Position numbers and translations under genes: made by a program. The notes under the pieces were generated by a model, which ran no database searches, was not told the origin of the DNA, and saw only the letters and a list, made by a program, of their open reading frames with translations. Of a DNA stretch of 64,000 nt, positions 4,693 through 60,131 are shown piece by piece. The DNA comes from Odiellus spinosus (lineage: Eukaryota > Arthropoda > Arachnida > Opiliones > Phalangiidae), in contig OY987228.1 in NCBI GenBank assembly GCA_963920705.1, positions 16,934,565-16,998,564 on the forward strand, given 5' to 3'. Each line of letters opens with the position of its first letter. Position 1 is the stretch's first letter.

Positions 4693-4830
4693 ATTTAGTT
4701 TATTCCATCATCACTTGTCAACACGCGCGAAGGTATACGCTACCAGTTATCTCTTTGATTTGATTACTTCGAGATAATGGGAATGTAGCTTCGCTCGTGT
4801 TGACAAAACTAGGTGGGATAAACTATATCG
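4693..4830 (+). repeat. Family A foldback element, copy at 4.7 kb
   Basis: Outer arms TAGTTTATTCCA... and its partner (reverse complement TAGTTTATCCCA...) pair through TTGTCAACACG.GCGAAG.TA, about 32 of 42 positions by eye. An inner stem TTATCTC/GAGATAA closes a loop TTTGATTTGATTACTTC. The whole is one long imperfect hairpin of about 138 bases. The arm and loop sequences recur at 26.8, 42.0, 45.6-46.1 and 60.0 kb. Confidence 0.75.
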
Positions 4831-7800
4831 GTACTGGGATAGAAAACCCTCATTTTCACTATCCGTTTGCAGCAGACGTCTCTTCAACCTCTTCTCTATT
4901 TATCTATACTTCTTCTTTATATATAAAAAATGTGTGTGTGGGAGAAAGAAGATCGGATACTTCGTCGCGTCGTGAACGCGCGAGGATTGGGATTTAAATA
5001 TCATTTTGATATTGAAATGCGTTTCTTTCCTCTCGGGAGTTCATAGGAGAGCCTAGGCCTATATAGCTCTCTTCAACTTCAAGACGAACGGAGATGGTGC
5101 ATGGCGATTTTACGTTTTTCTTTTTTTTTTTCTCTCTTCTTCTCTAGAATCTTTTTTATTTTCTTCCCCCCCTGGATCTTTCCAGAGTTTTCTCCTAGTA
5201 TATACGAACGGACTTATCTTTTGAGACCTTCCATCGTATGTTTCTTGGAGAATATCGACATCCCACGGCGAAATATCCGGTTTCGGGATTATGAGTTTCT
5301 TTTCAAAGTCGCGCGATATATGCCAGCACCGTGGGCGTCTGAAGTTTCGGCTGGCTCTCGTAATAACGAGTAATGTTATTGCTACATTGGATTTATTGTA
5401 AGGGTTATTTCCGAAATCCAGGCCAATTACTTTATTTTTTTTTTTTGCGCCGGTCGCTTTTTGTCGAGCCAGATAAGCTGTGGTCCTATATAGGTGCGTT
5501 TGTGAACTTTCGGTGTCTAGATAGCTATTTTTACTGGACATTTTTCTTTTGCAAAACAAAATTAGATGTTATTCATTAATAAGTGAAAGTTAATTGATTC
5601 AATACCAATATATATTGGAACATCGATATAGAATATTTTTGAACTTTTTCATTCAAAATTGTCTTTTCTAAAATATTTTTATCGACACTGACTAAAATGA
5701 AAAGTTTAAAATAATTCTTTACTTTATATATTGAAACTATTTACTAATTTTATAATCGAATTCCGTTTAAATGTTTCTCACTAATTTACTTAATTTAGAA
5801 GATAAAATTATGATTAAAATATAATCTATAAATCTGGAAAAAAAACCACGTATCGGTTAGCTCAACGAACTAATTATAACGCGAATAAATTAAATAAGGG
5901 CAAGTTCCCTCCCTAAATTGAAAATGATATCTTAATGTTTATGGCGATAATTAAACTTGGTTAATAAACTTTAAGCCCAAAATATTTCCTTATAAAAGGC
6001 GTTTGGTTACAAATTCGAAGAATATCGAGGTAAAAATAATTTCCGAAAGAGATTATATAGAGATTTCGCTATAATTGCGCCTAGACTTTTAAACTTTGAA
6101 ACTTGACCGGTTGAGCCCTTCTCCCACCCTCATTCCTCCTTTATTTCCGGTATTTTCCCTTTTAAGTTGGCTTCGTTTTAATCTAGAGGTCCTTAGCCTA
6201 GCGTCAACAAACTCCACGAACCGGGTCCCGTTTAGATATAAAATTGAAACCTTAAACTTCACGTTGCTAGAATTTCATCAAAATCCCGGCTCCCTTATAT
6301 CCCTCATACCCTGTTTGAATTCCGCGCCCTCTACCATCTATCGCGATATAGGAAAGGGATCATCTCGTATTTCCCTAAAGTCTCCTAGCTCGCAAACAAA
6401 CGCTTATTGCCATAGAATTCCCCTATACCAACGTTTTATCCAATGGCCTGCTCGGTTTCTATAACAGCCTATCTTCCATCGCTCGCGATCCTATCTGTTC
6501 AAAATTTTACGAGGAGCGAATTGAAAAGTTGCTCCATTTATAATTCAAAATCCCGTAAAGGGCCAGAAAAATATTATTTCGAAAAGAGAGAGACAAAACG
6601 GGCAATTTCGCTAGGAAACAAATCTGTCGGTTTTGCTGTTAGGTTTTTATTTTCAATAATATATATTCGAGTCCCAATTTTTGCGAACTAGGGAAATCCG
6701 GCGCGGATTGATACACGATGTTAAATATCATACGAAAGATAAATAGTAGTAGCAAACTCTTCTTGAATAAAAGTATATAGATTTAACGAAAACTCTGAGA
6801 GTTCTAATAAAATATTTATGAAATCGGGCCCTTCGTAAAACATTTTTAATTTTTTAAAAAGACGATACTAGGCTTGGGGTTTGGGAAATAGTTTTGAAAA
6901 GCGTTATTATTAGGAAAAGGCTTTTTTTTTCGGAATCTATGTGGGCTATACCGTATCTTGTTTCTACCGGTTTTTTTGTTGAATTGTTTAAATGCCGACA
7001 AAGTACGAAAGGCGAGATGTAGAAAAATTCTATAAACGGAGAGGCTGGATAAATATAAAATGCCTGTCGTGTTATTGGATTTCACCTTTTTGCTTTGTTT
7101 GTTCGAAGAAGTTTTCGATGTTTTCTGTTTTTTTCCTTTTTCCTCGATAACCACTTGAGAGTACGTTTCTTTCATGATCCTATAATGGTTTTATTTACTT
7201 GAAGATTTGTTCCCATACTACACGCAGTTGTTTAAAAATGTATCATTCGTGCATTTTTATTGAAACCACGTTCAGTTATTCACTAGTCTCGACTACCTAT
7301 AGTATATTTCACCATGCATAGAGTATTATCTTGAATGGATACTAAACTCTGATTGTAAGATATTTTTGATCGATATGAACTGTTAAAATACGCGTAAAAA
7401 CCTTATAAATCGTCCCCAAAGATTAAAAATTATCGAAAAAAACTCAGTTGCAAATGACATATCTCATAAAAAGGGTGAATGAACTAATTTAATTGTAACA
7501 AACATATTTCGTTTCATGCGGCCTTTTCAAAGACGAACTCTCATTTGTATCAGAAACTGAGTCCTTTTGATTTATTCCTTTCTTCGGGACTTCGTTGTTT
7601 TTTAGGCCTTTTTTTAACCGTTTAAATCAATTAAAAATAAATTTTATCCAGAGTATAGTATATATCTTTAAAGATAAAGATATCCCTGGATTTTCGCGTG
7701 GTTACAATTGAAGGAAAAATATACTAACGCATATTTTCGTGATTTGGTTTGGTATTAAAACCCTGGAAGCCGGCTTCATCCAAAACACACTTGTATGACA

Positions 7801-19200: not shown

Positions 19201-22192
19201 AAGTTTGAAACCATTCTTTCTTTTTATAAACGTTTCTACAAATGTTACTCTTTTTTTATATCCTCTGTTCCGTAGTTTAACATCCGTCAGCTCCCCGGAA
19301 TTCGTATCTTGATTTGATAGCGCGTACGAACCTAGACCACCCCTTATCTCTATCATTTGCGCGCGTACAATTAAAGGATTTAAAAATGAGCCTGACTTTA
19401 CGCACGCTGTCAAATCATTGTGGAATTTACTTAAGCAAGAAGCTTGGATTCACCGAATTGTTTTGTTAATATTAGCGTTGCTCGCGTTAAATTGCTCAGA
19501 AGAAAACGTTTGTGAGGCTGAAGGGATGTACAATGTTTGAGGCGCGTAGGAAAATTAGAGGCGAAGGAGGAAAAGAGTATAGAGCTTTATGAGCTTAAGA
19601 GGATGATGAGACTTTTTTTGATTCGTTTGGCCCAGTTGTGGGCGCCACATTTGGCGAAAAGAAAAGGAAGAAGAATCGTATAACTGTGTACGTGTGTGTG
19701 GAAAAAACCCCTCTCTGTTCACGCTCGAATGTTCTCACGCTATTTAAATCACAATACCCCCGGCCTGAGAATGAGGGAGAAGGAACTAAGAAGGGATAAA
19801 ACGCTGACTTTAACTCGAGTCTAGCAATAGGATTGGACACCCGAACCACGCGATTTCTTAAACTTTGTATATTTTTTCTGGAACGGAAAAACCTACGAAA
19901 TACTGATGGGGATGTTGAAGCACGAAAAGGGGGCATTCTAAAGTTTGCTGGGTTCGGCTAGGGCACTGATAAATAGTTCTTTCTACCCTTCTTGGTATAC
20001 TTTCGAGAAAGGAAAGAATGTGACTGCTCGGAACAATACTCGGGCAAATGCCGGATCGGATGAGAGCGAACGAACTTAAAGACCCCGCGTTTTTCTTTTT
20101 CTATTTTTTTTACTCGTCCTTCGTCACATTCCACAGTTTAGCTGACTCGTGTTGTCCGATTTTATGTCCAGATATAGCTAGACGAGCTATGAAGAGTTAG
20201 GCGCAACTCTTCTTGCTTATTAATATTACGTTTTATCGGAACACTTTTTCTCTGAAGTGTTCTTAGAGCCTTTAGGTAATAGCGCTAGAGTTGTACATAT
20301 ATTATATCCTTTTTCTTAAAAAAAAATCAACCAAAAGATCAAGTGAAAATGAATTCCCTAAAGCAGCAGCGGTATAAGTTTCAAATATATATGATATCAA
20401 AATCTTCTCATATTTTATTACACTTTTAAAAACTTAGGAATCGATTGAATTCGATTTCGGGTCTTTCGAAGTTGTTTCTATTACATCTTCATCCTTTGAA
20501 CTGAAAAGTTTCTCGTATAACTGTGGGTTGTAGGGTTGGGGGGGTGGGGCACCCATAAGCCCAAAGGGATAGAATGCAATAATGTACGGTATAATCTCGA
20601 AAGATAAACGTACAAGGTCCGCGCTTCACCAGCGCGCGAGGGGAAAATCAATCTACAACAAAAAAACCCTCGTCTATATCTAGAGCTTTAGCTTTCCCGA
20701 TTGGTGAAGGTTTATGTGGGTATAGGAGGGTAGTGGCATAGTTTCTTCATCGCCGAAAGGCCATAGAGATATCTAAAAGGGGCCTACTGTACAATAGTCC
20801 AATATTTTTCCTAGAAGGGGGTACGAAAAAAAGCCCGAAAAGATAGGAAACCTTGTGCAAAAAAAAAAAAATAAAATAAAATAAAGAAAAAAATAAAATT
20901 GGTGATAGAAAACCTCCAATTGATTTGAGCCGTATATAAAGGGCGAAGGGATAGGGGTTATTTCTCTATCGTAGACAATTTTCGATATTGTTTCTTTCTC
21001 TTTCTCAGTTTTTGTACGCGGTGAATCGATGAACGATGAACGAAAAACGAAAGGAGGGGATCTACAAAGGTGCCCTCAAAACTCGCGAAAGATTTTCCTT
21101 TAAGGGGAAACTTGGAGCTAAAAATGGAACAGGTTTTGAATTTATTTTCGGAATCACCATGCCGAAAAACGTATTCGATCATTTTTTCGCAATTTTTAGA
21201 CGCTTTTTTGGTGTTTAAATTAATTTTTGAAGTTGCAGGGTGACCAGATTTCCTATATTTCATATTTTTTCGTATATTTTCATTGCCTTCCTATACGTTC
21301 CTATAATTGACGGTTTTCTCCTATATTTTCCTATTTTTTCACTTTTTTCGGTTGTCAGGTTATTCATTTTCAAATAAAAGTATAATTAAGAATTTCCCAA
21401 AAATAAAGAACTCCCACCAAAGGCATAAAGTCAAAAACGGAAGAGATTGTCGCCGTTGTAGAATAATTTTGTTTATAAGTTAAGCCTTTTAGCGTCTAGC
21501 CTCGAATCCAAAGAGTCTCTCGCGAAAGTGTCTTAGCCTCACTTTAAAAACTACAAAAATAACCTGGGTTTGCTTATAATTAATTTAAATTAAAAATTAC
21601 AACATTTTATACCTTCTACTCCTATAGCTATTAGTGTTATTACTCCATGGGTACCCTATTTGTTTAATATTCGTTTTCAATTAATTTTTATCAATTTGAA
21701 ACATTTTATAACAATTATCGTATGTCAGGATAAATTTTAAAACTATTATAATTATTTTCAACCTTAGTTTAGCTTTAAAACACTTAAATTTTTTTTAATT
21801 ATTCATAGTTTTGCATATTTATTTCTTTTATTATTTTCAAATTTCCGCCCATAATACAACTCTAGATTATTTTTGCTTATTTCCAGTCATGCCGTCTCGT
21901 TACGCCCCCCTCGGGCCTCCCCTTTCTTCCCCGTGACCCCGTCTAGAGTAATATGGCGCCTTGACAGTAACGGTACGCCGGTGTTTTACTAAAATTAAAT
22001 TCGGTTTAATTCGCGTTTAAAATATCGTTAATCCTTGAAATACGTAAGCAAAGGATGTCTAAACTATCTGGAATTAAGGATGTAATCTCTTTTGGTCCCC
22101 CCTTATTCGGTGAGTTTAAAAAATTACATTTTTTTAGGGATAAGTGATGGGTGCCTTATTGATGATTACGATCTCTGACTTCGGCGATCTAC
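16281..22192. other. Intronic stretch, no recognised gene
   Basis: AT-rich. A T-rich, CTATATTTTC-like low-complexity patch at 21250-21350 follows CAGGGTGACCAGA, which looks like a hAT-type end, but no partner end was found. A GC-richer patch lies at 21890-21980. Nothing else recognised. Confidence 0.55.
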
Positions 22193-22560: not shown

Positions 22561-25158
22561 ATAAAGGGAGTTGACAGACCATGTTGTTTCCGTACTCCAG
22601 CTAATACAGGCAAATGCAGGGTGTTGGATATTCCCTATGGGACTATTTTTTTAATAATATAACTATTTTAATCTAGATATATCAATATTAACTACTATAT
22701 TAATAATTAAGTTAAATTTAATTTTTCAATATATATTATAGTAATTATGATACAATTATTTTAATACTGGTAATTATAATCTAGTATAATTATAATTAGA
22801 TTACAATTCAAGTTGGTAAAATTTGAAAAAGTAAATATAAATTCGGGCCATGCAATCGTATTATTTCAGCATTCAACAGTGTTTGTTTTGATCGACAATC
22901 TGAAAAATTCTAAATTCGAACAGGTTGTGTTTAAAGCTTTTTCGGGCGCTTGTGATGGCTCCTTAAGACAATAATTTAGATTTTGGGGAGGAATGTATTC
23001 ATTCGAATAGCCCTGAACTCAAGTCATTGTGTTACCACGAATACGTAAAAATAGTCAGCAAAAGTCAAAATAAGTTTGTTTTTTAGTTCTGATTCTGGAT
23101 TCGTAGAAAAATCTTTCTTGTTTGGTTAACTTTCTCATTTAGTCGTAAAAAAAGCTTTCAGACTCTTTCCTGACTCCCGTCTTCTCCCTACATTTTCTAT
23201 CGAATGTCTTGTAAGATTGGTCTCAGGATATAAGCCTAACTAGTATAGAGAGATTCGGTGGAGACTTCCTATAACGCTGCCCGCTTCTGTTTACCCGGCC
23301 AGTCCTTTTTAATATGGTATCGGTCTCCATGCAGTATTCTTTCATCCGATAAGACGTTCGGCTACTTCTCTTTTAATCATGGTCGCGGGTAAATATAGAC
23401 ATATACATCTATATCTCTCAATTTTATTCTATCTTATAGTACATATTACGCGGGATATATTCCTCGGAAACCCACGCATTCCCTTTTGGGAGATTCATCT
23501 TTACTCTAATGATACCGTTTATTCAAACAAGAGTAAAAAATAAAAAAACTCGTGAAATATAGTCATTCATGATTGACTTTGAAACCGGTGCAGTGAAACG
23601 TATGAAAATTAGGTTTTTGATAAACTAACTTACTCTTACTATAAAACTATATATATTCAAGTCGCATTCGAGTTTTTTAAGCATGCGCAAAGTTATTGTA
23701 CTTAACTCATGATTTGTTGACTTATAGAGGGAACTTGAAGCTAAAACTAAGGTAAATTCACATTGGTTTTGACGTAAATGCTACACTCTTGGCCAAAAAA
23801 ATCTTAAAAACGTGGCTTAATGATTCACACATTATATCAGAAAATAAAAATACATTTTAAGCTAATAGTATCCCTTTAAGGTTTATGAAACCCTAAACAT
23901 TCTCTCGATTCAATAAAGTCTATTGTAATAACTTCATAAACATCGTACTGGAAATATCCCATGGGCATATTCTATAAATTTTTCTTTGATAAAGATGGTG
24001 AGTGGGTGTAGATATTTTTACTTTTATTTTTCCACCCCCTTTTCCAGATAAGGTTTATAATATTCCTGAAGCTATCTTTCAGCGCGCAGACCGCAAAATT
24101 TAAGAGAAATTGGATCTTGGAGTTTCTCCGCCTTTATGCCCTAGTAATCTTCAGTTTTTTATATATATTTATTTGGTATATCGCGGTAAGGGTAGAGGTG
24201 AAGCCCCTCAAGCGGCTCGCGTATATATATATAGCCCCACTCTCGCCCTCTAATATCGTAAAGGGTAGAAGGCTCGAGGCTTCTGCGGTTGACAGCTTAT
24301 TTACGTGATTGGAAATTCTCTATTTTGGAATCTGAAGGGGTTTCGCTCGAAAATGGGAGAAAGAGAAGGTCGGAGGAGAAAGAGGGCATGGAGGGGTGAG
24401 CTCTAAATGGGACAGGCAACGGATTTATAATTGGAAAGGAGTAGTAAAGGCTGCGAGCTAGTATACGTACGCTGGCATCTTCCTTGTGTTCTCGGCTTTT
24501 CAATGGCAAGTCGGTTTTCCACTTTTCCCCATAAACCCCTTTTTCTCGAAAGACAGTCCCATTTGCTCCTTCGTTCTTCTAATACCGGTCTAAATCAGTT
24601 TGAAATTTCACCACGTACAGAATTAATACGCCTATCTTTTTACGGATTTATTTCTTAGGAAATCTAGCTTTATAAGTGTTGAAATCTCCGTTTTGATTCA
24701 GGGTAATATATCATATCTTTTTTTTTTTTATTCTTCATTTTTCTTCACGGGACGAACCGTGTCTCATTCCCAGTTGAATTGAAATTTAATTTTGGAATCC
24801 ACGCGCGATGAGAGCCAAGCTTTTCTTCTTCTTCTCTAAACTTTTCCATCTGTTGCTTTTGTTCCTAGTTTAGAATATACTGACGACTATAAAGTCTACT
24901 TGAGATTTTTAATTTTTACATTTTACCGGTATTATTTTTGAAATATGACTGTTGAATCAAATTACTTCTAAGCTAGAAAGATTTTTCGTGTTTATCTTGT
25001 TCACAGAGTTTAAAGAAAGAAGGTTTATTGGGATTGAAATAAAGCTAAGCCTTTTGAGGTATGGATTTCTGAAATTGCAAGCTGTTTGTTGAACATTATT
25101 TCAGAGACTTAAAACAATTAGAAATCGTATGGTTTGAGATTTTCAAGATAAACTTTGA
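22561..25158. other. Intronic stretch, no recognised gene
   Basis: AT-rich sequence with small inverted repeats (for example TAATCTA/TAGATTA near 22790). No coding or RNA gene seen. Confidence 0.6.
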
Positions 25159-25335
25159 GGAGAGAACTCAACCTAACAAACTATCGACTCCTTATCGTTT
25201 AACTAAGCCTAATCCACCAGTAAAAAAATTTAACAAACACATTAAACTAGAAATAAATTTTAAATTTACCCGGAAAATAGGTTTAGCTGGGAACCTGAAT
25301 TTCTTCGCTTTGATGTATCAGATATAGAGAGTTAT
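25159..25335 (+). mobile_element. TTAA-type foldback element, half copy
   Basis: Starts after TTGA (degenerate TTAA) with GGAGAGAACTCAACC and continues with TATCGACTCCTTATCGTTTA, AAGCCTAATCCACCAG and AAATAGGTTTAGCTGG. These match, in the same order, the left arms of the full copies at 33.4 and 48.9 kb. Similarity stops near 25335 and no right arm follows, so it is a truncated copy. Confidence 0.75.
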
Positions 25336-26533: not shown

Positions 26534-26761
26534 AACTTCCTTTTCCCCCTATGCGCATCAATTGCTTCGACGCCAGTAAACACGAAGTTCGCTGGCTGGT
26601 TTTACTATATTGGAAAGTCCTGTTAATCTTGACTGGTCGTTTATTTTGACGATTTCGGACGTTTTTAAGTCAACATTATCAAAATCCGAAATGAGTGCAA
26701 TTTATATTAGTATAATGTCTTTCGACGTTTTTATCCTTTCCATATTTGTAACGTAAACTTT

Positions 26762-26883
26762 TAATTCCACCTTAAGTTGGTAGCTCGCCTAAATCCTAGC
26801 TCCATCTATATCTAAGCCTAAATATATACTAGAGATAACGTATAGTCTAGGTTTGTTCGCGCTGCCAACTCGAGGTGGAATTA
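26762..26883 (+). repeat. Family A foldback element, copy at 26.8 kb
   Basis: TAATTCCACCTTAAGTTGG at the left and CCAACTCGAGGTGGAATTA at the right pair over 20 of 23 positions including the adjoining GTAGC/GCTGC. Weaker pairing continues inward (AAATCCTAG / CTAGGTTTG). The arms match family A copies elsewhere. Confidence 0.7.
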
Positions 26884-27001
26884 TCTATAATGAATCGAAT
26901 GGACTATGGAAGGCTCATTCGACTGGTACTCTTTAGTCGAATGGGTATAGCGCGAATGAAGCTACGCTACGCGTTTCCTCCAAATAAACAAATCATAGCC
27001 G

Positions 27002-27053
27002 TAACGGGTATATAGTCTAGCTTTGTCTTCGTTGCCAGTTCTAGTTGAAATAC
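27002..27053 (+). repeat. Family A single arm, direct repeat of the preceding right arm
   Basis: Aligns with 26835-26883: TATAGTCTAGCTTTG then CGTTGCCAGTTCTAGTTG, against TATAGTCTAGGTTTG then GCTGCCAACTCGAGGTGG. The partner arm is missing or too diverged to see. Confidence 0.6.
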
Positions 27054-27427
27054 TGTATATTCTCTCTATATATACGAAGCTTTACCTAGTCGCGAAAAGC
27101 GAGGGAGCATTTGCATTCAATTACTTAGGCTCCGTGTTTATTCCAAACGCTATACTAAATATATACACGCACGAACACGCATTCGACTCTTATAGCTATC
27201 TCTATCTCTATTGAGAGGATAGAAGCGACTTCAATAATCCTGTTGATATAGTTTAAACTCGTATAGGTCCTTTATATTAACCCGAAGAACGACCCAATGT
27301 GTAAAGTTTGATCAGAAGTTAATAAAAACATGATTTTTGGTCGTTTGGCCTAAACGAACCCCTATAGTTTTCTATAAAGGGGCAAAAGAAAATTTTAACC
27401 CTCTTTCCCACCTTTTCTTTCATTGCA

Positions 27428-27535
27428 GAGTTGCCAGGAGCTTGTGAGCACAGTTCAGAACAAATCAGTTCCAAAACTGAACTGCTAGCTTTTCTATCTA
27501 CTTCAGTTTGCGCTCACAAGTGGTTGGCAACACTG
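27428..27535. repeat. Nested hairpin of about 108 bases
   Basis: The outer arm GAGTTGCCAGGAGCTTGTGAG pairs imperfectly with CTCACAAGTGGTTGGCAACAC. An inner CAGTTCAG/CTGAACTG stem is perfect. The outer ends carry a GTTGCCA word like family A arms, but the rest differs, so membership is doubtful. It could be a foldback element or a structured RNA. Confidence 0.6.
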
Positions 27536-28254: not shown

Positions 28255-30337
28255 ACCAGTCTTTCCACGTTAAAACTTTTCCAGCGACGCGTGCCCCCGT
28301 CAATTGTCAGTTTAGGCTCGGAGCGTCCATTAGCTTTTATCGACACGTACTTAAACGCTTTAAATGACTAGTTTGCCTACTCTTACGTATTCTACCTCTT
28401 GTCTCCTTCGTCAGTATACGAACCTCGTTTCTGACTTAATCTGGACACGAATTGGGGTACTGTCCCATCTCCCCCTCTTCACCCTAGCTTCGATGGTGAC
28501 GATAAAAGGTGGAATATGTTTTCCTCCATAATTAAGACCCGTAAAGTTTATAGTAAAGTTTTGCGAGACGCTTTATACGACGAATGTAAGTGGGGGATAC
28601 GAGGACGAGTGAAGTGGGTGCGATTGGGGAAAAGGTTTTGGTGAAAATTGGTAGAAACCCGAATTATCTATTAACGTACAATACTCTAATTAATGATGGG
28701 CCGTCTCTAATGCGTGTTCGACCCCCTTTTCTCTTATAGTTTGAATCGGTTCGAGCTTTCAACAGTTGGAACGCGCGCCCGGACTTAGGTCTTATCTTAT
28801 AGGAAACGAGTTCGTCTATAGATAATAAGGAATATTAAGCTTCGCGCGAGCTGGAAACTCGTAATGGATTGCGGGTATAGTTCTCTATATCTTATCCGGA
28901 ATTCCCTTGTTAGGTTCGCTTTCCAATTCTATCTCTATAAATAGAAACAGATGGGAATGCTTGGATGGAAGGTAGTCGATCTTAATCTGATGAAAAGTCC
29001 AAGCAATGGCGTAGAATTAAGGGATATATCTTAGTCACTTTATATACGTTATTGCAGCATGCTGTATAAGATTAAGTTGCTACATAATGTTAATTAAATT
29101 GGCGTTGCGCTTGTGTGATCAATGAGAATAACAAAAATGGCTAATTTTGTAAGATTTCTTGAAAAGATATGGCTAGATTCGCAAACACTAGTAAGATCAG
29201 GCGAGTGGGACGTCACTCTTGAATTCGTTGTACACTTAGATAGTCCCTACTCTATCTTTACGGTAAACCTTACCAGAGAGCAGCAGTGTTGCGTTTCAAA
29301 AATTCCATTTCATAGTTCAAAGCCTATATTGACGAATTTGCCTATATTTCGACGCGTTTTTGCGCAGGCGCTGTAGGGTATGAGGGATAACTGAAGGTGC
29401 CTCTCTTCTTAGCCTCGAAATGGCTGATATGAATTAAAATTTCCAAATTAAAATGGGAAGAGCAGAGCAACAGAGGTTGTGAAACCTCGTCGAGAAAAAC
29501 AAATTATTCCAAACTTCTCTGGAGCACGGTCTATAATCTACTCTTAAATTTCAAATCATTAATTATTTCCTTCCATTAGTACAATATAACTGTATCTTTA
29601 ATCCTAGATTAGTTTCCCCATTGATTATTTAAAATAAATTCTACCGAATTTGAAGGGAGGCAAAACACGAGTTAGGATCTTTTAAAACTAAAAATGCTCG
29701 CAGTAACGCTGTAGTTTAAGCCTATAATCTGAGTCTTATATCTTGTTGTTCCGAGTAACGTCTTTAAACTTGGCCTATTTGTAATACAATGAATCGGTTT
29801 ACCTCGGACTGAGAAAGAGTATAGGGAAAAACCCCCTTTAGTGAAATTTTCCTGGCCTTGTCTTTTCCAGGCGAGCTTAAGATCCCGGAATAACTTTTAT
29901 TTTTTTCTTCCTTTTTGCCACATTTGAGGTTTTGGGCGCATGCATGAATAAGCGAAGAAATCTTAGCCAGATGTTTTCTTCTTCTTCTCCGCAAGCTGGT
30001 CGCTAGTACCCTGCTAACCCCCCTTTTCCTCTCTCTAGTTTGGGGAAATTCGCGCAACCGGTCCCTCCCTTTTGCAAGAATCTCTTACGTAAAAAGATTG
30101 GTGGTGGATAGATCTTTTTGGCGAAGGAGAGCGCGAAATTGGGTTTGCCTTTGCCAATCGTAATAATTCTCATAAACTTGTATTGCCAAAGTCGACCAAA
30201 AAATAGCGCGGATCTTGTATCGAATTATAATGTATATTATTTCGCGATCTTGGATCAACAAATATTTTCCATTGAAAGATAGTTTCATAGGTAGATGTTT
30301 GATGTTCCCAAGCTGGCGAACAACTATACCGAAAACC

Positions 30338-33270: not shown

Positions 33271-33396
33271 TTATCTATAAATTTGGTTTTCCTCTTTAAA
33301 TTTTAAGGTTGAATGGAGTGATTTTATCTCCAAAATATGCTTATGAACAAATATGTTGGAAATCAATTTGGTTCTTGGGGTTTATTATCCCTTTAA

Positions 33397-33769
33397 AGAC
33401 AGAATTTAGCCTAACAAGTGATTTTTTTATCGATTCCTTGACGTTTAAAATAGGCCTAATTCGCCAGTAAAAAAAATATATATTAAACTAGAAATGAATT
33501 TGAAAATTAATGGAAAATAGGCTTAGCTGAGCTGAATTAATGGAACTCCTGAATATCTTCGTCAGTGAACAATGTGCAAAGGCCCGTCGCTAAGGCGAGA
33601 TTGGTTCAGGATCTCCGTGAATCCAGCTAAGCCTATTTGCAGAGAAAGTTTTAAATTTATTTGTAGTTTAATGTTTGTTTGTAATTTTTTTATTTCTGGT
33701 GGATAACTCTTATTTAAACGATTAAGGAATCGATAAAAAAAGCACTTGTTGTTTGGTTGCATTCTCCCT
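33397..33769 (+). mobile_element. TTAA-type foldback element, full copy (373 bp)
   Basis: Flanked by TTAA on the left and TTGA on the right. Ends read AGACAGAATTTAGCC and, in reverse complement, AGGGAGAATGCAACC. Both arms then carry TTATCGATTCCTT, a CCAG(T/A)AA word and AAATAGGCTTAGCTG, giving arms of more than 150 bases around a centre near 33580. Length and plan agree with the 48.9 kb copy. TTAA duplications are typical of piggyBac and Kolobok elements; no transposase is present. Confidence 0.8.
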
Positions 33770-35159
33770 TTGAAGCTTTTGTCAATACACTCGTGCATTT
33801 CTGTATAGTAGAAGTATTACGCTCTGCCTTTTGAAGTCCCAAAAGGGTTTGTAGAATAATATCACCTCGCATTTTGTCAGCAAAACTTCTGTTCAAAGGA
33901 ATTAACAAAATTGAAAAAGCTGAGATTGCCAACTTGAACACGAAGTTTTCAGAATATTTAAATTACAACCGTATCTCCGCGTTAAATTTAATTATTTCTG
34001 TTATATGGTAAACTAAAATCGCGAAGAATTTCTTGTATATATTAAAAGAATCTTGCGAAACATTCGAGGTACCAAGCGCCACTTTTAAAACTCTAGTTAA
34101 TTTTGAATAACACGAAAATTCTTTCAAAACGAAGCTCTTAAAAGTAAGTTTTAAGTCGTGAAAAGAATCTTCGAATTTTGTACTCTTCCCCGAGCCGTTC
34201 TAAATTTAGATAGTAGGCTCTTTATTTTTTCTCTGTTTTGAAAGCCTTAGTTTCCAAACTTATTAGGGGGCGAGGGAGGGAGTTCGGTGTTTTGTCTCAT
34301 AGAACAAAGTCCTTTTAGATATATATAGGACGCTAAAAGGTTCGGAGCGGGATTCCTATTGAAAATTCTCTTCTGCTTCTATATACTCGCGTTTTAAGTC
34401 GCGTGGTTCTCTTTGTAAGCGCGGACATCAAGGTGTACCCCCTTATAATAAGCCGCGACACATTTAGTCGTTTCCAAGTAAAGGTCCGACTTTTCTAAAG
34501 AGGGGGGAATGGCTTTTGTGCCTTTTAAAGTTACTATAGAGAGTAGAGAAGCCGTTTCTCGCATCCCCCCTCCTTTGAAGTAATCTCCCCCCCCCCCCCC
34601 CGAAGCGGTATTAAAGTATATGTAGGAGAAGCTCGCGTGCGGGATAAACTAGGGATCTAGAGTCGGAGGAGATTTTTTTCCTCCCTCCTTTTTTGTTACC
34701 CACCCTGTTTGTCAAAAAGAAGGTAGTCTCCGATATGAGTTCTTTTCCTTCTTCCCCCGCTCCTACTCTCTTGGACGATTTTTCCTTCCTGGTGAAAGTA
34801 AAACGCGAAGACCGTACAGGCTGTCGATGTCAAAATGACTATTTATCACTCCCACGAACGGCCTCTATTCTATCCAATTCCATTCTCTTCAAAACTGGCT
34901 TTTAATCCATTGTAAGACGACGGATCGAAACGAGCTATAGAACAGAGCGCGCGAGTAGGAAGGGAAAACATTGGAAAGCTGACGCCAAATCTTTCGAGTT
35001 TAATGATGGAATCAACAAATGTTGATCGCCTTAAGGGCTAAAACTGGGCAAACCTATAACGTTTGGTAGCCGGGGAGATTTCGCAAAATTCAAAAGAGGG
35101 GGAGACGGTGGGGATGTTAATTCATTTCCGGTTTGGCTGACGGTCCTCTTATACGAGGG
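33770..35159. other. Intronic stretch, no recognised gene
   Basis: AT-rich, with GC-richer patches after 34250 and a C15 run at 34587-34601. Nothing recognised. Confidence 0.55.
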
Positions 35160-39300: not shown

Positions 39301-39824
39301 TCCCCTGGACAGAATCGTTAATTTTAACGTTTGATCCCGGAGAACTTGGGAATGAGTCAAGCCCTATTCACACGTATAATCCAACCATATAAAAATTGAT
39401 GATTAGAGACCAAATTTTAGAATAAGGTTCCAAGGTAGTTATAATTATAATTTGAAACTCTTAATAAACTCGTGGTGGTTACGGTGTAAATTTTTTTATC
39501 CAAAAAAAATTCATCCACACGCTTAAAAGCAGTAGCTCTCAAAGGTCCATGCTTGACCCTTTTTGGTTTAGTTCCTGTTATTGCCCGAACAAAAGCCAGT
39601 CGAGCTTGCTAACTGGAATAGTGTTTTATTAGACATCCATCAATTTTAATTATCCCTTGATCCAGAAAATTCGGACTGGCTTCTGTATACTATCTAGATC
39701 GCGTACTTTGTAGGAAAATCAATTTGCCAAAAGAACTAGATTATACTGCACATGGCGTTTCATTTTTTTCCTGAGACTATAGGCTTGAAGTTTCTCGCCA
39801 ATAATTTACGATTTTATTGTACTA
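36351..39824. other. Intronic stretch, no recognised gene
   Basis: The longest non-repetitive open frame of the window lies at 37174-37671 but resembles no family and can be explained by chance. A TTCACGTGAA palindrome lies near 38887. Otherwise AT-rich with no recognised feature. Confidence 0.55.
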
Positions 39825-40255
39825 TTTTTTATATTTATTTTATATTTTTTATATTTATTTTATATTTTTTATATTTATTTTATATTTTTTATATTTATTT
39901 TATATTTTTTATATTTATTTTATATTTTTTATATTTATTTTATATTTTTTATATTTATTTTATATTTTTTAAATTTATTTTATATTTTTTATATTTATTT
40001 TATATTTTTTATATTTATTTTATATTTTTTATATTTATTTTATATTTTTTATATTTATTTTATATTTTTTATATTTATTTTATATTTTTTATATTTATTT
40101 TATATTTTTTATATTTTATATTTTTTATATTTTTATTTTTTATATTTATTTTATATTTTTTATATTTATTTTATATTTTTTTATATTTATTTTATATTTT
40201 TTTATATTTATTTTATATTTTATATTTATTTTACATTTTTTTATTTCTTATTTTA
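39825..40255. repeat. 20-bp AT minisatellite
   Basis: The unit TATATTTTTTATATTTATTT repeats in exact 20-base phase from about 39829 to 40110 with a single visible substitution near 39971. It then decays into shorter or longer variants until about 40255. Because 20 is not a multiple of three the frame cycles, yet no stop arises on +, giving a long Phe/Ile/Tyr/Leu open frame that is not a gene. Confidence 0.95.
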
Positions 40256-41728
40256 AAATTTTAAGTAAGGATTGGTTTAGAATATTTTGACTTCCATGTT
40301 CTTTGCTCGGTGAGTTCTTGAAGCAGTAGCAAATAACGTTGCGTATAATAAATCTTCCTCATGAAACTGGGTTTATTATAAGTTCACTCTCTCATTTCAA
40401 AGGTTGTGAACCACTTTAAGCACTAGCATTAGTAGAAATAGTTTTATCATGTGAAACAGTCTTGAGTGTGTGAGTGTGGTAGGCTATAAGAACAGGAGAC
40501 ACGGTTCAGAGCCTTTTCCAATTCCAGGCTTCGTGTGCTAGATTTTATTTTTTTTTATTTCTCTCTCTCTCTCTTTTTTTTTTTTCCTGCTCGACGGTCT
40601 GTTGAACGGCAGTGCTATATGCTGTAACGTTGTTTCCCTTCTTGATTGCAATATCTGTATGAAAGCTTCGCTCTTTTTTCTTCTATTTGTCAAAAATGTC
40701 TCATAATATATATAATATATATCAAAATCAATGATTTTGAGTTTTCATAAGGTAAAAATAGAGGTTACCGTTGTTCTCTGGGATATTCTATCTTATATAT
40801 AACAAGGGAGACTAGCTTTGTTCATCTTGAATTCTCAAAGTGATTTAGATTTAGGTTTTTTTTTCTTCTTCTATATTGCACTCCTCCTTGTCCCTTGGCG
40901 AAACTATATCCTAGGCAATTTTCTTTTCCGTTATTAAAAACACGCCCATGTGCTTTTGTACAATATATATAGCTCAATGTACTCTCAGAGTATGTTACTA
41001 GGTAATTAGAAAGTGTAAATTTCTTCAAAAACATTTTTTTTAAAGGAGTGATGACAAGTAATAACTTTTGTCGTCTTGAAAATGAGTTACCTAACCTAAG
41101 ATCTAATATTTCTTATCAATAATAGATTCTTTTAGCTGAGGTGGAAACGAATTTTATTTATCTAAAAGATTAATGAGTTGGGTCCTATACTATTTTGAAA
41201 AAACAGATTGCCAAAATTTTCAAATTAAATCATATATAGATACTGGTTTGCACGAAATCATTTTGCAAACCAAATTTACATACCTTTTTAAAATCCTTTT
41301 AAAAGTTGCGTAGCATTTAGGCAAATATAATTTGAAAGGGGAGGGGATTTGGAAACAAATCATGTTAATATGTTCAATAATGTAGTAGTGAAACTAATGG
41401 ATTTAGTTGTAAACTGAGCTATAAAGCCGGAAATTATTGATTTCCACGCGCAATACTCGTGCGCAAACCCATTGTTTCCTATATTATTGAATACTACTAA
41501 CTGAAAATGCATGATATACTTCAATAATAAAAAAAACATTAGAGTGATCTTCCTTCTCCGAATCTCAATTAAATTTTTACGCTACGTTAAACAGAACGTA
41601 ATTTAACTATACCAGAGCTATGATATTGCGTAATCGTAACACGCGATTATAAATATAATTGCGAAGTGCTTAAAAAACTGTACCATTAAATTAGATTGCC
41701 GACCGGCGTCGTAACGAAATATTTAATT
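40256..41728. other. Intronic stretch, no recognised gene
   Basis: AT-rich with CT and T runs near 40560-40590. Nothing recognised. Confidence 0.6.
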
Positions 41729-42007: not shown

Positions 42008-42105
42008 CAGTTGACAAAGCTAGGTCCCTTTCTATTTCATTATTTTGATTGCTTCGAAGTTACTGCCTAACCTATAGCTTTTTACTTGCTGTAAACTAAT
42101 TTAAA
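42008..42105 (+). repeat. Family A foldback element, degraded copy at 42.0 kb
   Basis: CAGTTGACAAAGCTAGG (antisense arm) is followed by a loop-like TTTTGATTGCTTCGA and then CCTAACCTATAG...CTTGCTGTAAACT (sense arm). The order and words follow the better copies, but the left arm is shortened. Confidence 0.45.
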
Positions 42106-45559: not shown

Positions 45560-46110
45560 TCTTCATACATATCCAACGAGGTTAAATCCGGTAAAATTTT
45601 AGAAGGGCTTAGTAGTATACGTAGTGAACACTCCAATTGATTAAAACTACGCTGTAGAGTTATTTGATCAGTTTAATGTTTCAACGCGTACAAACCTACG
45701 TTCAATTTCATTTCAGCGAGATTTCGCGTCCATAGGGTAAAGGGAAACCTAACTATGTACGTCCTGCAAACTCTAAATGATTAGAACTATAGTTAATTCC
45801 ACTTCAAGTTCGCGGGACGCGTTAAACTAGGCTTCAGTTATTTCGATGATTTTGTTGACTTAGAGATCAAGGAAGCCTATGCATTTCGCTTGCTGCAAAC
45901 TGCAGATATACGTGAAATAGACTGTATACCTAAGCCGTTAGGTCATAAACTGTCCGAGATCTCACAACGTCCCAAACTATAGCCTTCTGGCTTAATATCT
46001 CTGATTGGATTCTGTCACTCTTACGAGGTTGAGAGAGGTGATTATACGTGTAGGTTGCGCGTGCTGAAATCTTAGACTAATTTTAACTATAACTATATTC
46101 TCCGGCTTTA
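45560..46110 (+). repeat. Array of diverged family A foldback units
   Basis: Arm-like segments recur in order: 45600-45660 (GTAGTATACGTAGTG..ACTCCAATTGATTAAAACTA), 45755-45795 (CTGCAAACTCTAAATGATTAGAACTATAG), 45791-45840 inverted (TTAATTCCACTTCAAGTT..GACGCG..AAACTAGGCTTC), a loop with GATGATTTTGTTGACTTAGAG, 45884-45935 (AAGCCTATG..CTTGCTGCAAACT) and 46040-46095 (GATTATACGTGTAGGTTGCGCGTGCTG..AACTATA). The 45791-45935 unit is the clearest hairpin. Others are recognisable but weak, and boundaries are approximate. Confidence 0.55.
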
Positions 46111-48917
46111 ATCAGCGTACCGAACCTCTCGTATACGTCCTTCCCTGTATGTATATACCTTTCGATCTGGAGCGGGAATCCTATATATATATATATATAC
46201 CGATTTAACTCCCGGATATACGCGATCCCCCCCAACCCTCCCTCGTTTTGGCTTAATGATGTTACCGTAAATTGCTAGACTGCAGCTTAGCTTCGCGGCC
46301 ATAATACGCGTAAACCGATTCTACGAAACTCTCCGCTAACTAGTTAGACCTATATAACGATATAATAATATAATATAGTTATATAGTATACTGATAAATG
46401 ATGTGTATATATGCGTAAGTCATTCGAGAAAGTTTTTGGCCCGATTTAATCCCGATGTTAGGATCGAAGTTAACGTTAAAACATCGTCTTAATAGGTAAA
46501 TATATTAGAATTATATACAATCGTGCATTATCACGGACTTCCTATGGTATTATAGGTAAAGTATTATAGGTTTGTTTGCGGTAATTCTAAATATCAACTT
46601 GTTAAAAGGGAAATTTCACCGTCGACGCGCAGTTATTTATAATTAACTCGTAACTTCCTAAAACGAAGGATACTTATTCTATGATATATATATCCTCATT
46701 AATTGCCGGCCAATGAAATCGTATTACTAGAACTTAAAATCTAATCGAGTTACGAGTTATCTGTTTTCAAACTCTGGGGCGTTAATTTTTCATTCGCGCG
46801 GCCGCGGGGTTCGCCGGTTTCGAGAGAGAACAAAGGAGTTTTCCATCGGCGATAACGCTTATTAATTAACGTTTCTACGCTAATCTTTGTCCAGAACGTT
46901 ATAATAAGCTTCTAGTTTCCTCTCCCGGACCCCTCGTCGTCCTCCTTTTCCTTCCATTTGCCTCCCGCCGCGAACTTTGGTTAGTATATATCACGCCTTA
47001 TATATTCGTTTTAGTTTTGCCATTTTGCCGAAGATGTAATCCGATGAAAGGAGGGGGTAACCTCTGGTTATAGACGCGGGTCCTCGTTCCGAACTCTCTC
47101 GGAGCGTGAAGTCGCGCGGCGCCTACTTTCTCATTAATCTCGTCAAACATTTCGGGCTAATTAACAAAGCGTGAATGATCCGCCCGACGACGATCTATAC
47201 CTTATACGTGTTGGTGCTCGGTGTAGCGCGATTGTTGAGTTCAATCGGCACGCTATTGTTACCCGCTCGTCATCATTCGTCCCCCACTATTTACGGCTAT
47301 TGGTACTTGTACACGAAAACTTGATGAATAAATCGGTATCGGAGGCTGATATAATTAACGATTAATTGGTATAAATACACCTCCAAACATCATCGATCGT
47401 TTTATTGAGATATATTAAGTATATTTTATCCCATTATCGCTTAACGCGACCAAATACTTCTCTAAAGTAACTGAATATTTCTCTAAATATATTTTGCCCA
47501 CGCATCATCTCGCGTTTATACTGATATAAGTTCACTTTTGACCAAAACATTTTTATATCATTTGTGGTTCTCGCTTCTCTCCAACTCGTTCGAAACCTAA
47601 TTTTGAGATTCTCTCGAATTCGTGTATGCCTCATTCCGGACGTCTTCTTCGATTAGTCGGCTCTGGTAAACACGACCAACTTTATATTCGGTTATATTAT
47701 ATGAGGAAACTGAGCCGCGGAAACTGTACAAATCAGTGAAATTCGGCGGAAACCTAATTTAGGAAGAGCGCGGGGGTGGGAGAAGGAGACCAGAGTCATC
47801 GCACCATCTCGAAGTTCATATCGTATATATAGCTTATTTCCAGTTTTATATAATATAGTCTCGAAGAATAGGAATAACGCCATGGAACGTGGGTATATTT
47901 ATATATGGTTGAACGTTTCGTAATTTCCGTCTTCTTCGCGTCTTTCGAAGCATCTCGTCTCCGAAATTCCTTCTCGGGACGTAATTTGCGGACTAAAATG
48001 ATATAGGAGGTTTTCATTAATATAATTGGTTTACAACGTGGCGTTCGCCGTTTTCTCTCGATATATATATATATATATATAAATATATGGCACGGGTTCT
48101 CTGGACTCCTGACCGAATCTTCTAAGATCGCTCGAATGTCTACGCCCCAATTCTTGCCCCCTTCCCCGTCTTTTCTTAATTTAATTAGATGTTGAATTCT
48201 ATTATATCGGCTTACGCTCGCTTCGAAAATTACGGCGTTGGGAAAAGGGAACTCGCGGCTTTAGCGAAATGAAGGGATGAAGTTATCGCGTTAGGTCACT
48301 GGATCGGATATCCTGGTACAGCAAACTCTCGTAACTGGCTTCTTTCCACTCGTAAGCCACGTGATTCTTCGTCCGTATATCGCTTATTAAACTGACTACG
48401 TATCAGTTTCCGCCCTATAGTTCGCTGATAAATTTCTAATTTATTATAAACTAATTTGACACCTAAAGAGTTGCGTATATAACGTGATTTATAATCCAGA
48501 GTTTTGCAATATTAACATAATTATTTTCGTTGAAATTTGTAGAGACAACCAAGTAGAAGGGAGGAAATATACTCTGAGAATAATACCAGCTGATACGCCT
48601 GTTTGAAGTTTCTAACCTTATTTCCTTCTATTTAAATATTGAAAAGTCTGTTTTCTTTTAGAAATTTATGCCCCTATAATTAGAAGCTTGGAAACTATAC
48701 CATAGTATTTTGTTTTAATAATGCGATGTTCGATACAAACCAGAGAAGCTTGAAAGAGCAATAATGTGTGTCGATTAAAAATAGTTAGGCTTAGCGACGT
48801 CTTGTTCGCTTGTAGCCTTCCGTTGTAATAATTCCTTAGCCATGGATAAAATCAAAACCTCATCCCATCGCGTGTAGATTAAGACGCGAAACGTTCACAA
48901 ATATTTAAAATTGTTAC
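46111..48917. other. Intronic stretch, no recognised gene
   Basis: TA microsatellites at about 46181-46200 and 48059-48080. A CpG-dense patch lies at about 46790-47160. A short hairpin CTATATAAC/GTTATATAG sits near 46350. No coding or RNA gene recognised. Confidence 0.55.
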
Positions 48918-49295
48918 ATGGAGAATTCTTCCGAACAACAAATATTTTTTACTGATTCCATGTTGTATAAATAAGCCTAATCCACCAGTAAAAAAATTAA
49001 ACCAATATTAACTAGAAATCAATTTAAAACTTACCCGGAAAATAGGCTTAGCTGGATTCATGAAGATCCTGAATTTCTTCACATCGATGGGTCAGCGACT
49101 AATGAGAAAAGGCACGTCGTTAAGACCAGATCTCCAGGAGACTTATAATAACATTCGATTGGTCGCTGACCCATCAAGGCAAAGATATTCAGGATCTCCA
49201 TGAATCCAGCTAAGCCTATTTTCTGGTGGATAAGGTCTATTTAAGTGATAAGGAATCGATAATAAAATCAGTTGTTGTTCGGTTGCATTCTCCCT
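48918..49295 (+). mobile_element. TTAA-type foldback element, full copy (378 bp)
   Basis: Bounded by TTAC (degenerate) on the left and TTAA on the right. The right end in reverse complement reads AGGGAGAATGCAACCGAACA; the left reads ATGGAGAATTCTTCCGAACA. The central arms at 49037-49099 and 49162-49223 match closely in inverted orientation (AAATAGGCTTAGCTGGATTC, GGGTCAGCGAC), around a loop of about 60 bases. Same plan and length as 33397-33769. No open frame of its own. Confidence 0.85.
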
Positions 49296-50759
49296 TTAAG
49301 GAGACGAAACTTTAAATTAATATACTTTCGAAATAATTAACGAGGTGTGGAAGATATTTGGCATGTTAATAGAGTAAAAAAAAAACCTGCTTCTACTTGA
49401 AATGTTTTCACAAAAATAAATGGGACATCCGGGTAATCCGATTACGAATGAGTTTTATTTTTAGCAAAAGGCACCTGCATTTTTCCGCGTCAAAATATTT
49501 GCAACGCGAACATTAAGATTCCAAAAAACTAGGAGAAAAATCTTTATGATTAACGAAAGTTGGTTTAGGTATGACCTATATTTTTAGATTTCTGTAGAAG
49601 AGATTTTTTTTTATAACTTTTAATCTGCAGCCAGGACTTTCGTTATTGTTTGCAAAAATTTGCTCTGGAATTAACAAAGGATTGGATTTAGGCTTTATCG
49701 AGCATTAACATATACATTTCTCTAGAATGTTTAAGAAAGGTTTGTTTATACTCATAAATAAATTATCATCTCTTTCTTAGTATATGAAAAAAGGGTTAGA
49801 AAATTTCGTTCTTTGGATGAAAGTAATTTTATAATGCACTTAAAAGTATAATATTTAACTTAGACGCTGTTATCTTTTTATAGGCCCCTAATACCGAGTC
49901 TACAAAACACCTAAAAGATTCTTTTTTAAGGCTAAATTTTCGAAGAAGTATGAGTAAACATGGGGCGGAAATGAAAAACCAACACGACTGTATATTTTGA
50001 TTCGTGATTCCCCTCGGGTTAGTCAACAAAATTGGAAACAAAAATTTGTTTACATAAAATTTTCTTCCAAAACTCGTATTAATATTATAGGACTGTAGAG
50101 ATAAGCGAGTGATAGAGTATGATTATGGCGATGTGGCTATGAGTAACAAGATGGTCCTTGGGGTTATGCTAGTTTCTCGACTAATTTTCACTGCCAAAGT
50201 TTTGGGTTGAGAGTGTTTGAAAAACTTTCTTGCGCATAGAAGGGTCATTAGTAGAGGTCGGGATTAGGGCCAGATAATCCATATATATATATATTTGATT
50301 AATCAGTTAAATATTCGCGATTACATTGCATTTATCATAGACTTGGCGTGGATAATTTCAAAATTTTGAATAAATATAAATCAAACAGATATTATCTTGT
50401 CCAAACTAGCATTTTGTGTAATATATTATAAATGATATTTTTAACATATCAATACTTGCTTGTTGTGCTAAATAAATATCTATAATACTCGAATTCCTAA
50501 ACAATTTTAGACCAAAAGTAGTTTCTGGTATACCGTTTCTCTAAAAACCCTATTTCAATATTATATTGATATTCGGTATCGCATGAAAAAAAATATACAA
50601 ATATTTTAAACCTTTTTTATTTTCGTTTTGAATTTAAGTTGTGAATATCGAAAAAATGTATATTTGTTTTTTTTCTTGTATTTCATACCCGAAATAGAAG
50701 AGGACGGTCTTTCAAAAACCCATTTCTACTTGAATCCTCACACCCACCACAGATGAGTT

Positions 50760-53513: not shown

Positions 53514-53529
53514 CTATCGCATGCGATAG
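53514..53529. other. 16-bp perfect palindrome
   Basis: CTATCGCATGCGATAG equals its own reverse complement. No known site recognised. Confidence 0.8.
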
Positions 53530-54773: not shown

Positions 54774-54800
54774 TTTTTTTTTTTTTTGTTATTTTTACAG
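54774..54800 (+). promoter_or_regulatory. 3' splice site of the CELF exon
   Basis: A run of 14 T is followed by GTTATTTTTACAG directly before the exon, giving a strong polypyrimidine tract and acceptor AG. A plausible branch-point A lies in the TTTTAATC stretch about 35-40 bases upstream of the AG. Confidence 0.85.
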
Positions 54801-54849
54801 ATGAACCGTCCAATCCAAGTAAAGCCAGCAGACAGTGAAAATCGAGGAG
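54801..54849 (+). CDS. bru3: CELF/Bruno-3 family RNA-binding protein, internal 49-nt exon
   Basis: The exon reads MNRPIQVKPADSENRG in frame 1, followed by one extra G, so it is 49 nt long, entered in phase 0 and left in phase 1. From memory of the family, this peptide is the last beta strand of RRM1 plus the start of the RRM1-RRM2 linker in CELF3-6 and fly Bruno-3. CELF1/2 and Bruno-1 have MHHPIQMKPAD at this place, so the MNRPIQVKPAD form points to the CELF3-6/Bru-3 branch. Vertebrate CELF genes also use a 49-nt exon here. The ATG is an internal methionine, not a start. These proteins bind GU-rich RNA and control splicing, stability and translation. The exon is bounded by TTTTTACAG and GAG|GTATGT. 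Neighbouring exons were not found in the window. The family call is near certain; the exact paralogue and the symbol are less so. Confidence 0.93.
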
Positions 54850-54855
54850 GTATGT
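54850..54855 (+). promoter_or_regulatory. 5' splice site of the CELF exon
   Basis: GAG|GTATGT matches the metazoan U1 donor consensus at all intron positions except the usual A or G variants. It fixes the exon end so that the reading frame leaves in phase 1, as expected for continuation into the (E)DRKLFVGM segment of RRM2. Confidence 0.85.
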
Positions 54856-55825
54856 TGTAAATTTTTAAAATTTAAAAATCTTTAGTTCAGTATACCTTTA
54901 AAACATTCGCCTTAGGCCTTACAAAATTTATACATTATACACTGAACGGTAATTTCAAAATTATGAACATTCTGGGGATATGTCAAATTTGTTTCTCATA
55001 TATTTGCTTATTATTCTCTTATACTTGCCGCAATCCGAAAATACACTCCGCGCGACGGAAAACTATTTTGGGGGGAGTTAATACCATAGTAGAAGCCGCG
55101 AGTGATGTAAAATGGCCGTTGGTGTTCTGATACTTTAGCGTTCATAGGCAAAAAGTTCATATCTTACTATAGACAAGAAATTTACGAATTTTGCTTTGAA
55201 ACTGTTGGGTGGATGTCTAGCATGCCGGGATTCAGTTCTCTCCGTTATTCCCTATCGGAAGCAGATAACAGAAGAGGTGTAGACTAATATTGGCAGTTAT
55301 ATAAAACGTTTGGCGCTATTAAAAGGCGGGGAAAATTAGCCGTAAGTGCAACAATTAAACATAAGTATACCATAATATTAATGAATGTCGAAAACCTAGT
55401 CACTACTGACCACATATCGGGACTTATAGTGCCAGATCCTTCTCCATAGAGATAGTGGATTTCCCCCTTGGGATCCCATAGCCGGGGAGACTTAATTGAC
55501 ATAATTATGTTTAATTATTGTACTTATTATATAGCTAATACATACGGAATTTAGTGACTGCGTTTGAATATAATTGGAGAAACGCCTCTGGGATAATTTT
55601 TGAGATATTAATATTTTTTTATCCATTGAGGATGAATATGGGTGATATTGGGTATAGATAGGGTCGCGAGGGTATTTCTTCGTGTGCAAAAACGTCCATG
55701 GAAACCTGTAAATAGAATTTACCGAAAATCTATCGTATCGTTTCCTCGACCCATCTCTTTTTCTTTTACATTCATTTATTATTGAAGGATGTTTCAGAAA
55801 CTGAAGCTTGCGAGGTTTCAATACT

Positions 55826-55841
55826 GGGGGGGGGGGGGGGG
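55826..55841. repeat. G16 homopolymer
   Basis: Sixteen consecutive G on the + strand, about 1 kb after the CELF exon and in the sense strand of the gene. Confidence 0.9.
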
Positions 55842-58800: not shown

Positions 58801-58948
58801 CGTCTTGGGTTTTTAAATGGTTAGATGCATCTATAATATTTGGGTTTTTGCGAAATTCAAAACTTTAGTTTAATTCTTATTATAATAGATATTCGGTAGT
58901 TATTAAACGGGGATTAGGGTTCTCAAAATAAGAGTAAATGCAACCTGA

Positions 58949-58956
58949 TGACGTCA
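58949..58956. promoter_or_regulatory. CRE motif
   Basis: TGACGTCA within ATGACGTCATTA; the same core as the two near 26.4 kb. Motif match only. Confidence 0.3.
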
Positions 58957-60009
58957 TTAGTGTGTCGTATTTCTAAAATTTTAATTTCCTTTCTACTCAT
59001 CAAACATTTAACTTATTATTCAAAGATGTAATAATTGGGTTGCTTGATAGAACAAGGATTTAATTTAAATTTAGGGTAATTATTTGTAAGATGATTAATT
59101 ATATTCAGGGTAACTGACCCTTTAAGGTAAACCCTCTCCCTTCTTTTTTTCTTTTCTTATCTCGCAGTCTCTTTTGATAAAGCTTTTCATTCGTTACTTC
59201 GTTAATTAAAAAAATTATTCGCGAACTAATCACTTTTGCTCTTCGTTAGTTTAAATTAATCTCTTCGCGATTTTGATGAAGGGTGAATAAGAATCTTCTG
59301 GTCGTTTTACATTAGAAAATCTTTTGTCTATACGAAACCCACTTTTTATTTCCAAATAATCTTTCTTTTTGACGGTCAAAGGGAGCGCTGCGGATTATAA
59401 ATGGATTGTAGGCTGATTAACAAGATGATTTGCCGCTACACCGTTCATTTTTTTGCTCTTCCTATATATTGGTTTTCTTTAGAGTTTACACATTACGTCA
59501 ACTTGTAATTAATGATTAGGAATAAGGGAGAATGTGAATAAAGCGGTGTAAAATATGTTTTTTCAAGCATTATTCTATTATTCACTGTTATACAGTTTTC
59601 CGTACGTTCTCTCTCGATGAATTGGTATTAAAGGGGGTGAAAATAGACGGGAAGTTAAATGATTATCGTATATTCTTTGATGAGATCGCGCATTTGGTTA
59701 CATTTGCTATATCGGAATTGTTCAGGAATGAAGGATATGGCGGGAAAATGGTCAATATTAAATATCCCACGCTTTTGCGCTTTACATCCTATATTAATAG
59801 TCAAACCACGAATATTTTGTTACCCTTTTCTACTTCATTCGTTTCTCAAACTCAATGCGATAGGATCGCGTGATATGGTTTGGCATTGGCTATTTGTTAT
59901 ACTAGGTGTTACTATCGCTACAATTTTTTCTGTTTTGTTTTCCCTTTTTTTCTTTTGATTCGATGCCTTTCTTTATCTATCACGCTGCATGGCGCTTTCT
60001 ATATCCAAT

Positions 60010-60131
60010 TTCATCTCGAGTTGTTAGCACACGCAAAGGTACAGGATATCCGGTATCTCTATGGTTTGTTGACTTTTAGAAAAAGGCATCCTATAGTTTC
60101 GCGTGTGTTACCAACACTAGATGGAATAAAC
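60010..60131 (+). repeat. Family A foldback element, copy at 60.0 kb
   Basis: The arm TCATCTCGAGTTGTTAGCAC continuing to AGGAT pairs with ATCCTATAG...ACACTAGATGG, about 30 of 39 positions by eye. The loop TATCTCTATGGTTTGTTGAC resembles loops at 4.75 kb and 45.85 kb. The right arm GTTACCAACACTAGATGG..ATAAAC resembles GTTGACAAAACTAGGTGG..ATAAAC at 4.8 kb. Confidence 0.72.

Follow-up and report, generated by a model that had tools for sequence, protein, structure and literature searches.

A stretch of 64,000 nucleotides from the Odiellus spinosus genome (hereafter the window) holds hairpins at 4.7, 26.8, 45.8 and 60.0 kb, and a first-pass annotation added a degraded one at 42.0 kb. This raises the question of whether these hairpins belong to one dispersed family (family A), what kind of element they represent, and whether selection maintains their fold.

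When the five listed hairpins and 13 genome matches were aligned using MAFFT, a common plan emerged. The first consensus led to 481 candidate places in the genome; 40 of these were scored, with a top match 84% identical, and 30 loci were taken from them. A profile was built from 29 of the 30 fetched copies, excluding the window's own copy at 60 kb (L018). The circularity is weak, the 30 profile loci having been fetched by a consensus from 18 sequences with five window copies among them. At E<0.001, the profile detected 11 copies in the window, none overlapping another:

4610..4683, + strand: partial copy, 12 bp before the next copy (profile E=4.8e-6)
4696..4826, + strand: copy, the 4.7 kb hairpin, with foldback arms (profile E=5.9e-22)
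19306..19432, + strand: copy absent from the first-pass list (profile E=5.8e-17)
23654..23729, + strand: partial copy, weak (profile E=9.6e-4)
26761..26888, - strand: copy, the 26.8 kb hairpin, with foldback arms (profile E=1.5e-24)
26948..27052, - strand: copy, 59 bp from 26761..26888 on the same strand (profile E=2.2e-12)
28773..28869, - strand: decayed copy, weak (profile E=4.4e-4)
40739..40842, + strand: decayed copy, weak (profile E=2e-4)
45682..45780, - strand: copy, 8 bp before 45789..45923, on the opposite strand by profile score (E=2.5e-7)
45789..45923, + strand: copy, the 45.8 kb hairpin (profile E=1.1e-16)
60001..60132, + strand: copy, the 60.0 kb hairpin (profile without that copy, E=1.2e-24)

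The first-pass annotation was right to see one family of dispersed foldbacks whose arms and loop are related. The 20 dinucleotide shuffles of the window gave nine rows at E≤1, the best at 0.15 and none below 0.1. With the reversed window and 95 reversed loci as a second control, the best E was 0.64. The annotated hairpins at 4.7, 26.8, 45.8 and 60.0 kb are members of one family, and the profile search added the seven other copies listed above. The hairpin at 42.0 kb (42014-42097) drops out: it scores E=2.4 only, is missing from the list at E≤1 and has an off-plan fold of -22.0 kcal/mol. The density of family A in the window (0.17/kb) is about twice the 0.082/kb found in the flanks of other copies. 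An inverted-repeat search of the window located foldback arms at 4693-4735/4786-4828 and 26762-26787/26858-26883. With short flanks, the copies at 4.7, 26.8, 45.8 and 60.0 kb fold at -69.2, -49.5, -41.6 and -55.7 kcal/mol, respectively, the 45.8 kb copy showing plan-like pairing in its inner part only.

The consensus of family A is a 132-bp near-perfect palindrome with TATA ends, TATAGTCAATTCCACCTCGAGTTGGCAGCACGCGCAAAGCTAGGCTACCCGTTATCTCTATGATTTGTTGACTTAGAGATAAAGGGAGCCTAGCTTTGCGCGTGCTGCCAACTCGAGGTGGAATTGACTATA, too short to code. Its two arms are long inverted repeats that start TATAGTCAATTCCACCTCGAGTTGGCAGCACGCGCAAAGCTAGGCT, with the terminal sequence TATAGTCAATTCCACC, and fold into 58 pairs, interrupted by a mismatch and a single bulged base, around a 13-base loop. 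What the first-pass annotation wrote down for arm and loop comes close to this computed consensus. The loop region is asymmetric and reads differently on the two strands; therefore each copy has a strand. Outside the TATA, base frequencies drop to background at the left ends (99 copies) as well as at the right (104 copies).

Target duplications, a check proposed in the first-pass annotation, were sought in 95 copies, and none of 4-12 bp was found among the 333 settings tried, following an earlier scan of 2-8 bp with 60 settings. The highest z, ~3.3, corresponds to 33% identity at 8 bp, where we estimate that a true duplication in copies ~20% diverged would give ~60-65%. A 9-bp target duplication is characteristic of FB/Tetris-type elements; at 9 bp, the flanks of family A match at 0.32, compared to 0.28 in the control. 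A 2-bp TA duplication, typical of Tc1/mariner-type elements, is indistinguishable from the TATA ends and would stay hidden there, and the ends suggest a TA-type target for family A. The window also contains another inverted repeat at 27426-27535, with 27-nt arms 78% complementary and GTTGGCAACACTG-like, which lies outside the family A profile matches.

Altogether, family A is very probably a MITE, an extinct family of non-autonomous DNA transposons in a genome of arthropod type, a case that is anatomical. It shows these features of a MITE: a short element with terminal inverted repeats (the 132-bp consensus with its 58-pair stem), non-coding, in many dispersed copies of similar length, 84 of 118 covering at least 105 of the 132 positions. 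The first-pass annotation had noted a length that fits no standard element known to it, but a non-coding palindrome of 132 bp that ends in TATA and has many copies of equal age fits an ordinary MITE, and a new MITE family is the ordinary explanation; a literature search on words of the consensus gave no match. A SINE is unlikely because of the palindromic plan.

We propose that the ancestor was an element of ~132 bp with a 58-pair stem and a 13-base loop region, whose terminal repeats were most likely recognised by the transposase of another, full-length element, and which most likely moved into TA-rich sites in one old burst. Some copies may have been duplicated in tandem around the time of the burst. 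Since then the copies have mutated nearly independently, arm by arm, without detectable selection on the fold. A Tc1/mariner-type source is possible, though we put it at somewhat below even chances. No longer element sharing the arms was found in 21 short copies, which showed no similarity beyond the arm and loop. A genome search for Transposase_1 gave no match, its search controls being likewise silent, and DDE_3 gave 96 genome matches, candidate places for a partner element. Judged by eye, the open reading frame lists showed no gene that anchors family A.

The loop motif, allowing up to two mismatches, occurs at 210 places in the genome, compared to 0 for the reversed control; by the listing, 6 of them have no mismatch, 49 have one and the other 155 have two. 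The arm motif occurs at 585 places, compared to 0 for its control. For the loop motif, 100 of the 210 places were listed and 50 of those fetched; for the arm motif, 100 of the 585 were listed, and among the matches listed a young repeat supplies 19 of the 28 two-mismatch places. The copies are spread over contigs C1-C18 of a genome of 443 Mb in 286 contigs. The flanks of 66 loci (182 kb) hold 15 more copies more than 100 bp away, 6 of which belong to the L029, L044 and L070 clusters. These counts suggest a total of a few thousand to some tens of thousands of copies, the range being based on the flanks of known copies, a non-random sample of the genome.

Two sets of copies were analysed. The first comprised 134 located copies, reduced to 118 once twice-fetched loci were removed and to 84 in which 105 or more of the 132 positions aligned; the second, with zero overlap with the first, comprised 67 loci with 77 located pieces, 49 of which entered the pairing test. 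Conservation along the element is biased, because the first set was collected by whole-element similarity and the loop motif, and the second by the arm motif. Identity to the consensus has a mean of 0.794 with one peak (range 0.69-0.90, 84 copies) and shows no young subgroup; the second set has a mean of 0.798 (49 copies). Random pairs of copies share 0.673±0.047 identity, near the ~0.65 that we estimate for independent decay from one ancestor. The history is one old burst followed by decay.

In contig C1, one decayed copy of family A sits within a young near-identical repeat (L105-L109); a 2.2-kb piece adjoining this repeat has no reading frame of more than 73 residues. Elsewhere, a family A copy (L111:130-308) is split by an insert of ~160 bp with inverted ends CCGAGGGG; as read by eye, TTTTAT(CC) flanks the insert on both sides as a direct repeat of 6-8 bp. 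Both the interruption and the copy inside the young repeat fit old fossils.

The copies are not scattered at random. A second copy lies within 100 bp in 8 of 66 three-kb loci, in all eight with the same orientation according to profile score, and neighbour density within 100 bp is 0.61/kb versus 0.082/kb elsewhere in these loci. Four of the 67 further loci, 59 of which are 501 bp long, also have a neighbour within 100 bp (L140, L143, L169 and L171). Arrays reach three units in L029, four in L171 and six in L070, the largest seen. This clustering exceeds the expectation of random insertion and counts against simple MITE insertion. The strand calls by profile and alignment scores conflict on one unit each in L011 and L171, and are tied for one unit each in L040 and L143.

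Two readings start from these arrays. It is improbable that the amplification of a palindromic MITE itself produced head-to-tail arrays, multimers being inserted during the burst rather than formed by later unequal crossing-over; the hairpin might have given such multimers by, for example, circular or rolling replication. This reading arises because adjacent units, although mostly on the same strand, are for the most part no younger and no more alike than unrelated copies. Identity between neighbouring units is 0.59-0.81, for the most part inside the spread of random copies, the closer neighbours being those of L029 (0.75-0.77) and one pair in L070 (0.81). Also improbable is a dispersed satellite, with palindromic tandem units of ~135-160 bp as the primary form and single copies left over from arrays that broke up. 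The same-strand neighbours, their density and the arrays of three, four and six units are what such a satellite would offer, and the neighbours in the further, mostly 501-bp loci agree with it. Against it, no neighbour was detected within 100 bp in 58 of the 66 loci, and conservation stops at the TATA on both sides, as for single insertions. The spacers between units range from none to 75 bp and differ among arrays, and that of L029 repeats the local flank, as a tandem duplication after insertion would give. Moreover, the pair at 45.7/45.8 kb in the window lies on opposite strands by profile score, which, like the conflicting and tied units, speaks against a strict same-strand rule.

Other repeats accompany family A. 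A second, longer foldback family occurs in the window at 25182-25290, 33393-33775 and 48911-49302, and at L027:1000-1455 (~450 bp); it matches itself on both strands and recurs in the sequence flanking many of the fetched loci. The window also has a long AT-rich tandem array with a unit of ~20 bp at 39704-40250.

Free decay from a palindrome predicts that the arms within a copy match no better than arms of different copies of similar age. Watson-Crick pairing is 67.7% within copies and 66.6% between arms of different copies (84 copies). When arms were shuffled in age bins, double complementary changes numbered 143 versus 132.5±8.7 in the 84 copies, 59 versus 51.7±5.9 in the 49 new copies and 202 versus 183.8±11.3 in the pooled 133. 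Paired positions were 2909 of 4296 versus 2875±17 in shuffles (84 copies), and 4552 of 6706 versus 4498±25 (133 copies), an excess of less than 1 percentage point, ~2 SD above shuffles, of which subfamilies may be the cause.

The fold is inherited from a palindromic ancestor and is not detectably maintained. Diverged copies still fold because they were founded as palindromes, not because the fold was kept. The first-pass annotation had described copies diverged yet each still folding; the confirmed copies do fold, whereas the hint of a kept fold fails the compensatory-change test that this annotation had itself suggested.

It is accordingly very improbable, and already largely refuted, that the hairpins are structured RNAs (resembling pre-miRNAs, for example) in which selection preserves the fold while the sequence drifts. 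All confirmed copies fold, the pooled paired positions lie above the shuffles, and the 4.7 kb copy has six paired double changes against an expectation of 1.8 (p=0.03 in the comparison for that copy). However, double changes stay near the shuffles in the 84, 49 and pooled 133 copies, the whole excess is within that 1 percentage point of pairs, and the average copy has lost about one third of its stem pairs. Among the 84 copies, p<0.05 was reached by two, one of them the 4.7 kb copy in the window; this is no more than chance, and an Rfam scan of the 64-kb window found no family at the gathering threshold. Gene conversion between the palindrome halves, which would keep the arms alike and could draw on the slightly high within-copy pairing and the several shared changes in two copies (L072 and window 4696), has the least chance of all, the clear excess of matching changes that it predicts being absent from the tests of 84 and 133 copies.

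The MITE family shows that sets of diverged yet still-folding hairpins can arise without selection on the fold, and the comparison of within-copy with same-age cross-copy arm pairing is a simple control for such claims. It is also one more repeat family to mask in the host genome, and its mostly same-strand clusters pose a small testable question on the multiplication of short palindromic transposons.

Further features of this genome were recorded. Three of six fetched contig ends (L100, L102 and L104) are TTAGG repeats; insects and many other arthropods typically have such telomeres. A mitochondrial cox1 match has internal TGA codons, and its adjoining frame is cox2 under the invertebrate mitochondrial code. 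Several cox1 pieces with TGA codons lie at several places between 1.1 and 4.4 Mb of contig C17 and are probably nuclear copies of mitochondrial DNA.

Among known systems, family A is most readily set beside the TA-target MITEs of the Tc1/mariner group. They are likewise short and non-coding, with terminal inverted repeats, TA-rich ends, high copy number and a burst followed by decay; family A differs in being almost wholly inverted repeat and in having some tandem copies. A literature search by phrase on tandem MITE arrays gave no match. Published work already describes tandem repeats that stem from MITEs and from foldback elements (PMC9659126, PMC4079207). Tetris of Drosophila virilis has ~220-bp tandem repeats within its inverted repeats, in arrays of kb size, and the inverted repeats of foldback (FB/Tetris-type) elements are built of internal tandem subrepeats (PMC4079207). 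Family A does not match an FB/Tetris-type element, given the 9-bp flank match of 0.32 versus 0.28 and a consensus with no arm subrepeats by eye. Tetris and other tandem-unit foldback transposons resemble family A as non-autonomous foldback elements linked to tandem repeats (PMC4079207), whereas family A is a single 132-bp palindrome whose largest array has six units. MITE-derived satellites include miDNA4 of Xenopus tropicalis and those of Messor ants (PMC9659126). As in family A, a MITE is found there in tandem units as well, or is their source; compared to these satellites, the arrays of family A are short and dispersed, and most of their adjacent units are diverged like unrelated copies.
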